Positions 1 to 8,221 of a stretch of 64,000 bases of DNA are shown piece by piece (within the stretch, counting starts at the first letter, position 1; every line of letters starts with the position of its first letter). The DNA comes from Parasegetibacter sp. NRK P23 (GTDB lineage Bacteria > Bacteroidota > Bacteroidia > Chitinophagales > Chitinophagaceae). The translations under genes were made by a program, and so were the position numbers. The notes beneath the pieces are model-generated. The model worked only from the letters and a program-made list of their open reading frames with translations. It did not search any database and was not told where the DNA came from. The stretch lies in assembly GCF_023721715.1 (NCBI RefSeq), contig NZ_JAMDLG010000001.1, positions 375,889 to 439,888 of the forward strand, in the 5' to 3' direction.

Positions 1-1953
1 AAAAACAACGGTTACAAAGACCTTTACACGAATACTTATATTCCCAGAGAAAAACTATTCAGCAAAGAAATTGATGTGGACCATATTATTCCACAAATGA
101 GTTTATTTGATGATAGCTTTTCCAATAAAACCGTTATATACAGAAAAGAAAACCAGGAGAAAGGAAATCAAACTGCTTACGACTTCATTCTGAGCAAATA
201 CGGAGAAGACGAGGCTGAAGCATTCGTAAACCGTATTACAGCCCTTTTCGAAATGGGTAAAAAAAGCAAGGAAGAAGGCATTTCAAAGGCCAAGCTACAG
301 AAACTGCAAAAACGACAAAGCGAAATAGGAGAAGGCTTTATTGAACGTGATTTACGAGAAAGCCAGTATATCGCTAAAAAGGCTAAAAACATGCTTTTAT
401 CTATTACAAGAAGTGTATTAGCAACCTCAGGCGAAGTAACAGCCAAACTGCGGGAAGATTGGGGCCTGGTAAATATCATGCAGGAAATTAACATGCCTAA
501 ATTCCGGGCTTTAGGACTTACTGAGATGATCGACAAAAAAGATGGTGGTCAAAAAGAACGGATCGTGGATTGGAGTAAGCGGAATGATCACAGGCACCAT
601 GCAATGGACGCCTTGGTTATCGCATTCACAAAACGCAACCATATACAATACCTGAACTATCTGAATGCAAGAAAAGACGAAGGGCATAAACTTCATAATA
701 ACATTCTTGGCATTGAGGATAAAGAAACTGAATTAATTATTGATGATCTTGGCAGACGTAAAAGAAAATTCAGGCTTCCGATACCTAACTTCAGGGAATT
801 GGCCCTGGAACACCTTGAAGGTGTACTTGTATCACATAAAGCAAAAAACAAAGTTGTCACCAAAAACAAAAATAAAATCCATACGGCAAAAGGTGATAAG
901 ATAAAAACAGAACTTACCCCCAGAGGCCAGCTACATAAAGAAACAGTTTATGGAAAGTACAGATACTACGTAAGTAAAGAAGAAAAAATAGGCGCTAAGT
1001 TCGACGAAAGCATAATTAACCAGGTAACCAACTCCATTTACCGTAAAGCTTTAATGGAAAGGCTTGTATCGAACGGAAACGATCCTAAAAAAGCTTTCGG
1101 CGGAAAAAATGCCATCAGTAAAAATCCTATTTATCTTGATAGTGAAAAAAAGCAAACATTACCAGAGAAAATCAAACTCACATGGCTGGAAGATGATTTT
1201 TCCATCAGGAAAGATATTAACCCTGGGAACTTTAGCGATGCAAAGTCCATAGAAAAAGTACTGGACCAAGCGGTTAAGAAAAAACTTTTTGAACGGCTTA
1301 AAGCGTTTGATAATGATCCCAAGAAAGCTTTCAGCGACCTCGAAAAGAACCCTATCTGGATGAATGAGTCGAAAGGAATTAGCATTAAACGGGTGAAGAT
1401 CAGTGGCGTTAAAAACGCTACCAACCTTCACTACAAAAAGGATCATCTTGGAAGGCAAATTAAATCTTCGGATGGCAAGTTAATTCCGGTTGACTTTATA
1501 AGTACTGGCAACAATCATCATGTTGCTATCTACAGAGATCACGAGGGAAATTTACAGGAGCGTGTAGTCTCCCTCTTTGATGCCGTCCAACTTTCTTCAA
1601 ACGGACTCCCAGTTATTGACAGGCAATATAATGAAGCTTTGGGTTGGACATTTCTATTCTCAATGAAGCAAAATGAATACTTCTTATTCCCTAACGAAAA
1701 AACCGGATTCATCCCCTCAGAAATAGACTTATTCAACCCCCAAAAAAATAAGGACATAAGTCCCAACTTATTTAGGATTCAGAAACTTACCACTGGAGAT
1801 TATTGGTTCAGGCACCATCTGGAAACATCTGTGGAATCCAAAAAGGAACTTAAAGACGTTACATTCAAACGATTAAGTCTTTCAGGTATTCAAGATATAG
1901 TCAAAGTAAGAATCAATCATATAGGACAAATCGTTGGAGTGGGCGAATACTAA
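1..1953 (+). CDS. cas9: CRISPR-associated endonuclease Cas9, type II-C (5' end outside window)
   Basis: C-terminal 650 residues of Cas9, the RNA-guided DNA nuclease. The frame is open from base 1, so the gene starts outside the window. The GTG at 76 codes for a valine inside the HNH motif and is not a start. HNH motif: residues 25-31 read DVDHIIP, with the following asparagines SNK and KENQEKGN. RuvC-III: HHAMDALVIA at about residues 199-208 with the catalytic H/D. The remainder is the wedge and PAM-interacting region. It contains two related segments, NDPKKAF...KNPIY (about 1080-1134) and NDPKKAF...KNPIW (about 1312-1362). The gene looks much more A-rich than its neighbours. Type II-C is inferred from the neighbouring cas1 and cas2, the absence of csn2 or cas4 and the repeat type. 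Confidence 0.97.
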   Translation, partial: KNNGYKDLYTNTYIPREKLFSKEIDVDHIIPQMSLFDDSFSNKTVIYRKENQEKGNQTAYDFILSKYGEDEAEAFVNRITALFEMGKKSKEEGISKAKLQKLQKRQSEIGEGFIERDLRESQYIAKKAKNMLLSITRSVLATSGEVTAKLREDWGLVNIMQEINMPKFRALGLTEMIDKKDGGQKERIVDWSKRNDHRHHAMDALVIAFTKRNHIQYLNYLNARKDEGHKLHNNILGIEDKETELIIDDLGRRKRKFRLPIPNFRELALEHLEGVLVSHKAKNKVVTKNKNKIHTAKGDKIKTELTPRGQLHKETVYGKYRYYVSKEEKIGAKFDESIINQVTNSIYRKALMERLVSNGNDPKKAFGGKNAISKNPIYLDSEKKQTLPEKIKLTWLEDDFSIRKDINPGNFSDAKSIEKVLDQAVKKKLFERLKAFDNDPKKAFSDLEKNPIWMNESKGISIKRVKISGVKNATNLHYKKDHLGRQIKSSDGKLIPVDFISTGNNHHVAIYRDHEGNLQERVVSLFDAVQLSSNGLPVIDRQYNEALGWTFLFSMKQNEYFLFPNEKTGFIPSEIDLFNPQKNKDISPNLFRIQKLTTGDYWFRHHLETSVESKKELKDVTFKRLSLSGIQDIVKVRINHIGQIVGVGEY

Positions 1954-2097
1954 TACAACCGCATTGTACGTAATACAAAATTTTGATTAAACTTACTATT
2001 TCGACTATTTAACTGATGTTAATAAATCCTCCCCATTTTACGGAAAACCGTTTTTCCTACCCCAATAATTAAACTACGTTTATTGCGAAATCAACCT

Positions 2098-2159
2098 GCA
2101 GCCTTTTCTGAATATCCATTTAAAATGAATGGATACTCAGAAAGAGAGGCCTGCTTTTT
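2098..2159 (+). terminator. Long hairpin with T-tract after cas9
   Basis: The outer stem GCAGCC (2098-2103) pairs with GGCCTGC (2148-2154). The inner stem CTGAATATCCATT (2108-2120) pairs with AATGGATACTCAG (2128-2140) with one mismatch. TTTTT follows at 2155-2159. This has the form of an intrinsic terminator and would end cas9 transcription before the endonuclease V gene. It could instead be the 3' end of a small RNA. The shape is seen directly; the function is inferred. Confidence 0.6.
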
Positions 2160-2232
2160 GAAATACTTTGAATAAACTATTCTTTCCAAAGGAGTTATCC
2201 TGAAGCAATAGTCTAAACAAAAGGCATTCGCA

Positions 2233-2919
2233 ATGGCACTTTATTCAAATATCACCATACCGCAGGCTACGCTCATTCAAAATGAGCTAAGGGAAAAACT
2301 AGATATCACTGAACGGGATTTGAAAATCTCCACCATCGGCGGAGCGGATATATCCTTGAATTTATACAGTTCCACCATTTACGCCGGCATTATCCTGCTT
2401 TCTTTTCCCAGCCTGATTCCTATTGCTTATTCCCTTATAAAAGCCGAAACGCATTTCCCTTATGTACCGGGCTACCTGGCTTTCAGAGAAGTACCGGCAC
2501 TCACTGAGGCCTGGCAACAAATGCCCACTAAACCTAATGTATTGATAGTAGATGGGCACGGTATCGCTCACCCGCGACGAATGGGCATAGCGGCTCATTT
2601 CGGCGTACATACCGGACAACCCAGCATGGGCTGCGCCAAAAAAATTCTTTTCGGAAGGTATGAAGAACCGAACCCTGAACAAGGCTCATTCAGTCCAATA
2701 CTACACAAAGATGAACAACTCGGTTATGCATTCAGAAGTAAAGGAAAAACTGCTCCCGTATTCATTTCTCCGGGCCATCGCATCGGTATGAAGAACAGCC
2801 TGGAAATCATTCGACAATGTACCGGAAAATACAGGATTCCGGTACCTACCCGCCTCGCCCATGAGCTGGTGAACAAATTCAGAAGAGGCGAATTGAAAGA
2901 AGGCTTTTCACAATTATAA
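2233..2919 (+). CDS. nfi: Endonuclease V (deoxyinosine-specific 3' endonuclease) inside the cas locus
   Basis: Endonuclease V nicks nucleic acid one base 3' of deoxyinosine, and in some homologues inosine in RNA. All residues known from the Thermotoga enzyme are present: D39 (GGADIS), E86 (YLAFRE), D107 and H113 (VDGHGIAHPR), K136 (GCAKK), H210 (RLAHEL). The conserved blocks VPGYLAFRE and SPGHRI are also intact. At 228 aa it has the normal family length, so it is probably active. It lies 279 bp after cas9 and 32 bp before a PD-(D/E)XK nuclease gene that leads into cas1-cas2. This gene is normally a stand-alone repair gene; its place between cas9 and cas1 is unusual. Family assignment is strong; a CRISPR role is inference only. 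Confidence 0.93.
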   Translation: MALYSNITIPQATLIQNELREKLDITERDLKISTIGGADISLNLYSSTIYAGIILLSFPSLIPIAYSLIKAETHFPYVPGYLAFREVPALTEAWQQMPTKPNVLIVDGHGIAHPRRMGIAAHFGVHTGQPSMGCAKKILFGRYEEPNPEQGSFSPILHKDEQLGYAFRSKGKTAPVFISPGHRIGMKNSLEIIRQCTGKYRIPVPTRLAHELVNKFRRGELKEGFSQL

Positions 2920-2951
2920 CGCAACGCTAAATACCATTAACCCCTATCACC

Positions 2952-4040
2952 ATGGACTTCAAAGACAAAATCAAACTGCTCGCGGAAAGAGTCTCCAAAC
3001 TCAAAGACCAGATTAAAACCGAAGAAGCAACCAAGAACGCCTTCATCATGCCATTCATCAGCGAGTTGGGTTACGATGTATTCAATCCAATGGAAGTAAC
3101 GCCTGAACTGGTGGCCGACATTGGCATCAAACAAGGAGAAAAGATTGATTACGCCATTCTGAAAGATGGCGATCCGATCATCCTGATCGAATGTAAATGG
3201 AACGGCGCCCCCTTAAACGTAAACAACGCATCCCAGTTGTTCAGGTATTTCCATACCACCAAAGCAAAGTTTTCCATCCTCACCAACGGCATTGAATACC
3301 GTTTCTATACTGATCTCGTGGAAGCCAATAAAATGGACGAAAAGCCTTTCTTCGTTTTCGATATTACCGACATCAAAGACAACCAGATCGAAGAACTGAA
3401 GAAGTTTCACAAAAACTATTACGATTTCGACAACATCGTCAGTACCGCCAATGAATTGAAATACACGAATGAACTGAAAACACTCATTCATAATGAAATC
3501 GCCAATCCCGGACCGGATTTTGTGAAGCATTTCGCCAGGCAAATCTACAGCGGTACTATCACGGCAAAAGTACTGGACCAGTTCACCAACTTCACCCGGA
3601 AATCATTTACGCAATACATCAACGACCTCATCAACGACCGTCTGAGATCAGCGCTTTCCAAAGAAACCGAGAGCCAGAAAGAAACAGAAGCCGCTCCGGA
3701 ATTACCACCATCCACCGATAGCATTGTAACCACCGCAGAAGAGTTGGAGGCATTCTATATCGTAAGGGCAATACTCCGTGTGCAAATCGATGGCAACCGC
3801 GTGCACCACAGGGATGCCCTCTCCTACTTCGCTATCCTGCTGGACGACAACAACCGGAAAAGCATCTGCCGCCTTTACCTCACGAATACCCGGAAACAGA
3901 TCGGGCTCTTTGATGAACAGAAAAAAGAAACCAAATGCGAACTTAAAACACTCGGAGACATATACCTATACGCAGATCAGTTGCTGAATACAGTTGCTGT
4001 ACTCGACAAACAAAAACAGGTGGCGGAAGTGAAGGAATAG
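2952..4040 (+). CDS. PD-(D/E)XK nuclease, type I restriction HsdR-N/COG4748-like
   Basis: This 362-aa protein has an N-terminal restriction-endonuclease fold. An early helix carries E23/E24, followed by D66 (EKIDYAI), E80-C-K82 (LIECKW) and Q95 (QLFRYF), the usual D-ExK-Q arrangement of HsdR N-terminal domains. There is no helicase motor and no methylase or specificity gene nearby, so it is not a type I restriction system. The C-terminal third (EELEAFYIVRAIL, then RDALSYFAILLDDNNRK) resembles the conserved tail of solitary HsdR-N proteins, whose role is not well established. It lies 32 bp after endonuclease V and 34 bp before cas1, consistent with one transcript. Nuclease activity is inferred from the motif. 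Confidence 0.8.
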   Translation: MDFKDKIKLLAERVSKLKDQIKTEEATKNAFIMPFISELGYDVFNPMEVTPELVADIGIKQGEKIDYAILKDGDPIILIECKWNGAPLNVNNASQLFRYFHTTKAKFSILTNGIEYRFYTDLVEANKMDEKPFFVFDITDIKDNQIEELKKFHKNYYDFDNIVSTANELKYTNELKTLIHNEIANPGPDFVKHFARQIYSGTITAKVLDQFTNFTRKSFTQYINDLINDRLRSALSKETESQKETEAAPELPPSTDSIVTTAEELEAFYIVRAILRVQIDGNRVHHRDALSYFAILLDDNNRKSICRLYLTNTRKQIGLFDEQKKETKCELKTLGDIYLYADQLLNTVAVLDKQKQVAEVKE

Positions 4041-4074: not shown

Positions 4075-5309
<1,235 letters not shown>

Positions 5310-5311
5310 AG

Positions 5312-5360
5312 AATCAGGATTGAAAAAACGGGGTAAAAACTCATTTTTTCAATCCTGATT
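5312..5360. terminator. Perfect 17-bp inverted repeat between cas2 and array
   Basis: Left arm AATCAGGATTGAAAAAA at 5312-5328 and right arm TTTTTTCAATCCTGATT at 5344-5360 match perfectly around a 15-nt loop. The structure can form in transcripts from either strand. If cas2 is read rightward and the array leftward, it would act as a shared bidirectional terminator. The external T-tract is weak on both sides, so a protein-binding or leader role is also possible. Confidence 0.55.
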
Positions 5361-5402: not shown

Positions 5403-8221
5403 GTTGTCGAAGAACTAATGTACATAATAATTTGAAAGCAAATCACAACAGTGGGCTATGGCTGCACTTACTGGTATAGGTTGTCGAAGAACTAATGTAC
5501 ATAATAATTTGAAAGCAAATCACAACCCGTCAGAAAAGTACTTATCATAGCCCCGAAGTTGTCGAAGAACTAATGTACATAATAATTTGAAAGCAAATCA
5601 CAACACAACAATAAGAACGAAGTCACTTGTAACCGTTGTCGAAGAACTAATGTACATAATAATTTGAAAGCAAATCACAACGCCTTCCTAATGAAGCCTA
5701 TCAGCTTCGATGTTGTCGAAGAACTAATGTACATAATAATTTGAAAGCAAATCACAACTAAAGAGCAGTTCAGGTACTTGCGACCTGTGTTGTCGAAGAA
5801 CTAATGTACATAATAATTTGAAAGCAAATCACAACAGTACCATCAAGGATATGGAGCCGTTCAGCGTTGTCGAAGAACTAATGTACATAATAATTTGAAA
5901 GCAAATCACAACCGTAGCCGATGCTGGCCCCGTCGCCGATGCGTTGTCGAAGAACTAATGTACATAATAATTTGAAAGCAAATCACAACAATCAGTTATT
6001 TCAATTTCACTCTCCGGCGTTGTCGAAGAACTAATGTACATAATAATTTGAAAGCAAATCACAACTGTCGCCGGTGTTACTGTTGCCGGTGTTCCGTTGT
6101 CGAAGAACTAATGTACATAATAATTTGAAAGCAAATCACAACGTTCTTTCTATACCTGGCGAATTCACGGAAGTTGTCGAAGAACTAATGTACATAATAA
6201 TTTGAAAGCAAATCACAACAGGTCGCTAATAAAGACGGTTTCCTAACAAGTTGTCGAAGAACTAATGTACATAATAATTTGAAAGCAAATCACAACGCTT
6301 CACCGCTTCTTACTCCACCAACCCTTGTTGTCGAAGAACTAATGTACATAATAATTTGAAAGCAAATCACAACGCTTCGCGATTTGAAGCGTTGCTTCGT
6401 TTTGTTGTCGAAGAACTAATGTACATAATAATTTGAAAGCAAATCACAACCACTCAGCTGAAGATAATAGGCGGCATTGGTTGTCGAAGAACTAATGTAC
6501 ATAATAATTTGAAAGCAAATCACAACGAACGCGTGGAACCAAAGCCGTTTCCACGAGTTGTCGAAGAACTAATGTACATAATAATTTGAAAGCAAATCAC
6601 AACAAGGCGACCGGAAGCGTCAACGCTGAGCGCGTTGTCGAAGAACTAATGTACATAATAATTTGAAAGCAAATCACAACGAGTTCTTTGATTACATTTT
6701 CTAGTTTAGCGTTGTCGAAGAACTAATGTACATAATAATTTGAAAGCAAATCACAACCGCACGAAGTTTGAGTATACGTTCTGCTGCGTTGTCGAAGAAC
6801 TAATGTACATAATAATTTGAAAGCAAATCACAACTGAAAGGCGGTTTCTGCGTTAGCGGCCGAAGGTTGTCGAAGAACTAATGTACATAATAATTTGAAA
6901 GCAAATCACAACCCGCTGCCTAAGCGGTCTCCGCCGAGTGTTGTTGTCGAAGAACTAATGTACATAATAATTTGAAAGCAAATCACAACGCACTGAGCAG
7001 CGTTTGGCGCTGCAAGATTGTTGTCGAAGAACTAATGTACATAATAATTTGAAAGCAAATCACAACTTAATGGCGAAACGGTAGGAACTGTTTCCTGTTG
7101 TCGAAGAACTAATGTACATAATAATTTGAAAGCAAATCACAACAATGTTGAAACTTCCGTCCGCAATAATGTGTTGTCGAAGAACTAATGTACATAATAA
7201 TTTGAAAGCAAATCACAACCCTACTCTATCACGGAACGCGACGAAAAAAGTTGTCGAAGAACTAATGTACATAATAATTTGAAAGCAAATCACAACAGCA
7301 GTTTAACTTTCATGCTTTCGTGTTTTGTTGTCGAAGAACTAATGTACATAATAATTTGAAAGCAAATCACAACACCTTACCCACGATGTAAAAATGTCGT
7401 GTAGTTGTCGAAGAACTAATGTACATAATAATTTGAAAGCAAATCACAACCGAAAAGTTGGTTCGATGATGGCATGATTCGTTGTCGAAGAACTAATGTA
7501 CATAATAATTTGAAAGCAAATCACAACACTTAAGGACGGTGCTACTTATGTATGTGAGTTGTCGAAGAACTAATGTACATAATAATTTGAAAGCAAATCA
7601 CAACTTCTCCCTCTTCCTGCTTATCAGCAGGGTTGTTGTCGAAGAACTAATGTACATAATAATTTGAAAGCAAATCACAACCGAGATTATGGAGCGATAC
7701 GCAAGAGGTCTGTTGTCGAAGAACTAATGTACATAATAATTTGAAAGCAAATCACAACTGCGAACTAGTTCAGCGGTTTCCGCCACCTGTTGTCGAAGAA
7801 CTAATGTACATAATAATTTGAAAGCAAATCACAACGCCTTCATAGCCTTCGTTTGCTAATGCGCTGTTGTCGAAGAACTAATGTACATAATAATTTGAAA
7901 GCAAATCACAACGCTGTGATATTTACGCCGATTTGCACCCAGGTTGTCGAAGAAACTAATGTACATAATAATTTGAAAGCAAATCACAACTATCATAGAG
8001 AAGAAAACGGAATTGCCGAAGTTGTCGAAGAACTAATGTACATAATAATTTGAAAGCAAATCACAACTGTACCTGAAAATAGCGTTATCGGGAATAGGTT
8101 GTCGAAGAACTAATGTACATAATAATTTGAAAGCAAATCACAACCTGCGTCATGCACTTGTTTACCGGATCGAAGTTGTCGAAGAACTAATGTACATAAT
8201 AATTTGAAAGCAAATCACAAC
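5403..8221 (-). CRISPR. Type II-C CRISPR array, 37 repeats and 36 spacers
   Basis: The repeat is 47 bp. On the + strand it begins GTTGTCGAAGAACTAATG and ends GAAAGCAAATCACAAC, with GTTGT/ACAAC inverted ends. Repeats start at 5403, 5480, 5558, 5635, 5712, 5789, 5866 and so on to 8175-8221. Spacers are 30 bp, with three of 29 (nos. 8, 14, 23) and two of 31 (nos. 2, 19). All repeats read identical except number 34 (7943-7990), which has one extra A. The first and last repeats are intact, so no degenerate trailer marks the old end. The minus-strand form (GTTGTGATTTGCTTTCAAAT...) resembles known Bacteroidota II-C repeats, hence the minus orientation; this is inferred. Confidence 0.97.

Follow-up and report, generated by a model that had tools for sequence, protein, structure and literature searches.

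The CRISPR-Cas systems of type II-C are built on the gene order cas9-cas1-cas2, and one described departure from this layout is found in the II-C loci associated with PcrIIC1. PcrIIC1 is a predicted PIN-domain protein and a II-C pro-CRISPR factor that binds Cas9 and boosts it (PMC12669027, PMC13153721); it represents one extra gene in the II-C locus. In other CRISPR types, Cas4 and host nucleases are known as prespacer processors (PMC6519985, PMC9699676). Endonuclease V (Nfi), for which structures from E. coli (4XPU) and T. maritima (2W35) are available, functions in the repair of deaminated bases (PMC3489907). A link between endonuclease V and a CRISPR locus was not described in the literature searched, most subscription papers lying outside the reach of that search.

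The locus analyzed here lies in the window, a 64,000-nt stretch of the genome of Parasegetibacter sp. NRK P23. It shares with the usual type II-C locus the type II Cas9, Cas1, and Cas2 proteins, a predicted tracrRNA by cas9, and an array after cas2, and it differs in having a 279-nt spacer and two nuclease genes between cas9 and cas1 (Table 1). The order is cas9, 279 nt, nfi, 32 nt, a gene for a 362-aa PD-(D/E)XK nuclease (here called the second nuclease), 34 nt, cas1, 2 nt, cas2, and the array, and all five genes are on the plus strand. The order, strand, gaps, and reading frames claimed in the original prediction were all reproduced from the sequence, and family searches assigned the claimed cas9, cas1, and cas2 genes to type II. 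While the PcrIIC1-associated loci likewise have additional coding capacity in a II-C locus, the nfi product and the second nuclease come from other families and have no known interaction.

Table 1. Features of the cas locus in the window and the family matches or remarks that belong to them
Feature	Coordinates	Strand	Matches or remarks
cas9, 3' part (HNH, RuvC-III)	1..1953	+	PF18541, E 6e-57; PF13395, E 3e-18
cas9-nfi intergenic region, 279 nt	1954..2232	+	Stable hairpin at ~2097-2160
Endonuclease V (nfi), 228 aa	2233..2919	+	PF04493; PRK11617
Solo HsdR_N/PD-(D/E)XK endonuclease, 362 aa, PHROG 4225 family	2952..4040	+	PF04313/PF13588; phrog_4225
cas1, type II	4075..4971	+	TIGR03639, 304.8 bits (cut-off 120); PADLOC Cas1_II, E 7e-114
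cas2, type II	4974..5309	+	TIGR01573; PADLOC Cas2_II
CRISPR array, 47-nt repeat	5403..8221		36 exact repeat copies located; a further copy with a 1-nt insertion near 7943

The window start truncates cas9, which has its full length in the genome and encodes 1425 aa (ORF L050:10565-14842). A tracrRNA is predicted upstream of cas9 on the opposite strand, where an 11-nt exact anti-repeat, GCAAATCACAA, is located on the minus strand (L050:10421-10431) with a terminator-like stem and a T-run on its 3' side. This anti-repeat was the sole match outside the array in an exact anti-repeat search (0.03 expected), which succeeded where a search by duplex energy alone was drowned in G+C-rich chance matches. 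The genes from cas9 to the array are solely nfi, the second nuclease, cas1, and cas2; with neither csn2 nor cas4 among them, the locus is classed as II-C. Because cas9 is full length, cas1 and cas2 are confirmed, and a predicted tracrRNA is present, the II-C locus looks complete. The repeat at 7943-7990 of the array contains the 1-nt insertion, with GAAGAAACTAATG in place of GAAGAACTAATG, and later repeats are intact. Between cas2 and the array, a perfect inverted repeat (17-nt arms, 15-nt loop; 5312-5360) resembles a two-way terminator.

The nfi product was matched to endonuclease V by PF04493 (E 7e-68; 228.6 bits against a cut-off of 23.4) and by the NCBIfam equivalog PRK11617 (238.5 bits against a cut-off of 230). 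The residues singled out in the original prediction (D39, E86, D107, H113, K136, and H210) were invariant across five aligned relatives, and, together with the family match, this upholds the claimed identity. The PYxP wedge is also present, as PYVP at 76-79. The protein is like the enzymes of known structure, with a full-length match and all catalytic residues, and compared with known endonuclease V it is unusual in its gene neighborhood only. Phylogenetic analysis placed the window copy as sister to that of Parapedobacter luteus (support 99/85), within copies that are not beside cas genes. Since the closest relative is from Parapedobacter, a member of another family (71-72% identity), nfi was probably gained by horizontal transfer. 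The original prediction had counted, among others, two findings against a CRISPR-linked endonuclease V, namely, a sole nfi copy in the genome and a grouping with the housekeeping copies of close relatives. The gene is single-copy in the source genome, in line with the former; as to the latter, it does group with non-CRISPR copies, but the nearest of these is that of Parapedobacter and not the housekeeping copy of a close relative. Viral contigs yielded no nfi.

The arrangement was then sought in other genomes. Among 396 genomes of the family, cas1 was found in 122, nfi in 26, and the second nuclease in 45, and nfi was within 20 kb of cas1 in the source genome only. A class-wide sample of 395 genomes contributed further nfi carriers. 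When the 54 other nfi carriers of both samples were searched for any cas1, 26 had one, in no case near nfi. Both genes are thus present in 27 genomes and are near each other in the source genome alone, with the caveat that genes on separate contigs of broken-up assemblies could still be close. A further comparison covered the best 80 of 570 candidate nfi loci (named organisms), with flanks of up to 10 kb at either end, some loci being short. None of these 80 loci contained a homologue of the window cas9, cas1, cas2, or second nuclease, while the nfi positive control returned 80/80; the queries were the window's own proteins, and very distant cas genes would escape such a test. Elsewhere in the family, neither cas genes nor the second nuclease are among the neighbors of nfi, which are in many cases conserved within a genus. 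A check for nfi near cas1 elsewhere, as originally recommended, was therefore negative both in the genomes with both genes and at the best 80 of 570 loci. With a single-copy gene that groups with non-CRISPR copies and an arrangement present in no other genome checked, neither a CRISPR subtype that includes endonuclease V nor a CRISPR-specific role of nfi is supported by these gene comparisons.

The second nuclease matches the HsdR N-terminal nuclease domains PF04313 and PF13588, and its match to phrog_4225 (E 3.9e-130) is full length, with residues 1-350 aligned on 2-353 of 357. The claim of a PD-(D/E)XK nuclease with D66, E80-x-K82, and Q95 was confirmed by these domain matches and by the invariance of D66, E80, K82, and Q95 in 34 relatives. 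The structure model (pLDDT 85.6, pTM 0.57) has a separate C-terminal domain at ~258-350. The first 160 residues of the model resembled DrdV, of type IIG (Z 12.4, rmsd 3.0, 135 aligned), and the first domain resembled HsdR of Vibrio vulnificus (Z 11.3, rmsd 3.9, 126 aligned). A search of solved structures by sequence gave no match for this protein, and the matches of the C-terminal domain to T4 MotA (Z 6.3) and to capping protein (Z up to 6.6) were too weak to be accepted. A type I HsdR subunit was also considered and rejected, because the 362 aa include no helicase (motor) domain and no hsdM or hsdS partners are present, the neighbors being nfi and cas1. No Cas4 match was found in Pfam, PADLOC, or NCBIfam, and the PADLOC defence models matched neither endonuclease V nor the second nuclease. 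Members of PHROG 4225 are solo endonucleases, annotated as endonuclease or type I restriction endonuclease; the window copy shares their catalytic residues and, unlike these mostly solo genes, stands inside a cas operon.

Relatives of the second nuclease were found in 18 phage or prophage records, in 11 viral contigs, in 44 plasmid-collection records (some of them chromosome-sized), and also as solo genes in chromosomes. In the tree, the window copy stands closest to solo copies, and the CRISPR-linked copies do not form one clade. Of the 16 genomes that carry cas1 as well as this gene, 6 have the two in the same orientation and no more than 10 kb apart. These copies near type II cas genes (G016, G128, G162, G262, G360, and the window) exceed what random placement gives and correspond to at least three separate events, represented by the window, by G016, and by a 44%-identity group. 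In the other linked genomes, the gene is upstream of cas9, and in none of them is it between cas9 and cas1. Members of the 44%-identity group have the gene at a fixed chromosomal site with or without a nearby CRISPR locus (G144, G302, G404). Judged by this distribution, the second nuclease is a mobile solo endonuclease, and a special CRISPR role for it is unproven. By the same gene records, nfi and the second nuclease have different histories and are no conserved pair.

The cas9-cas1 gap was compared across 72 related loci in which cas9 was located. The gap was <200 nt in 46 loci and ≥300 nt in 26, and in ∼17 of the 72, the window included, it held a gene of at least 120 aa. Most of these genes are of two kinds, both gained independently many times. 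A transposase-like protein of ∼200 aa is present in the gap of 10 loci (one copy a fragment), with a weak Pfam match to Y1_Tnp (E 0.003) that is below the cut-off. A DUF6036/DUF2204-type nucleotidyltransferase of 159-161 aa is present in seven loci from five genera and was gained independently on the Cas9 tree. When the gap occupants were placed on that tree (FastTree), 6-8 separate changes were counted, no fewer than with shuffled labels; the method is approximate, and the scatter of the occupants is plain all the same. In the window's nearest Cas9 relatives, the slot is mostly empty or nearly so. Judging from these loci, genes have repeatedly landed or been exchanged in the cas9-cas1 slot.

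The transposase-like protein, which is found in three genera (L064, L150, L154, L170, L200, L201, L209, L212, L222, and L224), resembles REP-associated tyrosine transposases, and its start is often 1-13 nt after cas9. In six of its seven loci (L068, L225, L217, L199, L183, L224, and L194), the nucleotidyltransferase begins no more than ∼7 nt from the stop codon of cas9. In L224, the two occur together, the nucleotidyltransferase first and the transposase-like gene after it.

A glnA-like gene is upstream of the CRISPR locus in the source genome and in four relatives (L062, L063, L176, and L184), and neither nfi nor the second nuclease was found in the cas9-cas1 gap of these four. Because their Cas9 proteins belong to other branches of the Cas9 tree, the comparison suggests that cas9 has been exchanged at a conserved chromosomal site.

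The 279-nt region between cas9 and nfi was analyzed for traces of an insertion. Its hairpin has a fold z of −6.2. A search for a repeated element or mobile-element ends found one full copy of the region in the whole genome, and no cas1 remnant was detectable within it; a 9-nt match to the cas1 start, which might have marked a vestige of a cas9-cas1 junction, was no better than in shuffles. The Bacteroidota-type promoter pattern (TTTG/TAnnTTTG) was absent from the intergenic regions, and its overall matches equaled chance. Base composition was discarded as a sign of recent insertion because, at almost every locus in the family, third-position G+C is lower in cas9 than in cas1.

We consider it quite likely that this is a type II-C locus in which two unrelated nuclease genes have lodged in a recurrent cas9-cas1 insertion slot. 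Both genes are most likely passengers, since the arrangement is unique among the genomes checked and the gap often takes unrelated genes. The recipient would be an ordinary, apparently complete type II-C locus, with a slot that foreign genes repeatedly enter in Chitinophagaceae-like Bacteroidota. Endonuclease V would serve as a base-repair enzyme for deaminated bases. The second nuclease, coming from a pool of prophages, plasmids, and defence genes, would be a solo defence or inter-element nuclease, and as far as its relatives indicate, it most likely acts on DNA independently. The tight spacing suggests that both genes are cotranscribed with cas1-cas2; on this shared transcript, they would be coexpressed but would not be CRISPR machinery, having no part in adaptation or interference. 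Of the roles originally proposed, that of an independent module that landed here is best supported, and the idea of a CRISPR-linked endonuclease V is not supported, no second genome among those checked having the arrangement. Three observations weigh against this preferred explanation: same-strand spacing of 32 and 34 nt into cas1 is also expected of a functional operon, the linkage of the second nuclease to type II cas genes is above random placement, and neither gene is damaged or has lost a catalytic residue, so that they have been kept by selection or are recent arrivals.

The position of both genes directly upstream of cas1-cas2, on one strand and with short gaps, would also fit a pair of adaptation helpers, in which DNA nicked by endonuclease V is cut or trimmed by the PD-(D/E)XK enzyme to give prespacers for Cas1-Cas2 in a Cas4-less system. 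Type II-C is without Cas4, which, like host nucleases, processes prespacers in other types, and several relatives also have the second nuclease close to type II cas genes. We regard this explanation as unlikely, given that nfi is beside cas1 in no other genome checked and that the second nuclease, which matches no Cas4 model and has mostly solo relatives, is upstream of cas9 and not beside cas1 in the other linked genomes. A one-lineage II-C variant, in which both nucleases were recruited as prespacer-generating enzymes and nicking at base damage feeds spacer acquisition, is the least probable of the readings considered. Linkage of the second nuclease to cas1 in at least three events could instead mean that this protein alone is a loose accessory of the family's type II-C systems, with nfi a bystander. 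That, too, is improbable: the 44%-identity group keeps its site regardless of CRISPR, and defence and mobile genes cluster in any case, so linkage is no proof of cooperation. The two nuclease genes adjoin each other, and prophages and plasmids carry solo nucleases of the HsdR type, as would suit a separate module directed at phages whose DNA contains deaminated or modified bases, placed with CRISPR in a defence cluster. The pairing was not seen again, however. The second nuclease was not detected at the best 80 of 570 nfi loci or around the other nfi genes of the family, its 11 viral loci have no nfi homologue, and neither protein is matched by the PADLOC defence models; we judge such a module very unlikely.

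New CRISPR accessory proteins are often proposed from their gene neighborhood. One locus by itself is weak support for an accessory role because the cas9-cas1 gap of this family repeatedly takes unrelated genes, and better candidates are the genes that recur in the gap. Because of its recurrence there, the nucleotidyltransferase has a stronger claim than nfi to be considered a CRISPR accessory. If the two nucleases of the window did work in adaptation, this would bear on how prespacers are made in type II-C systems that lack Cas4.
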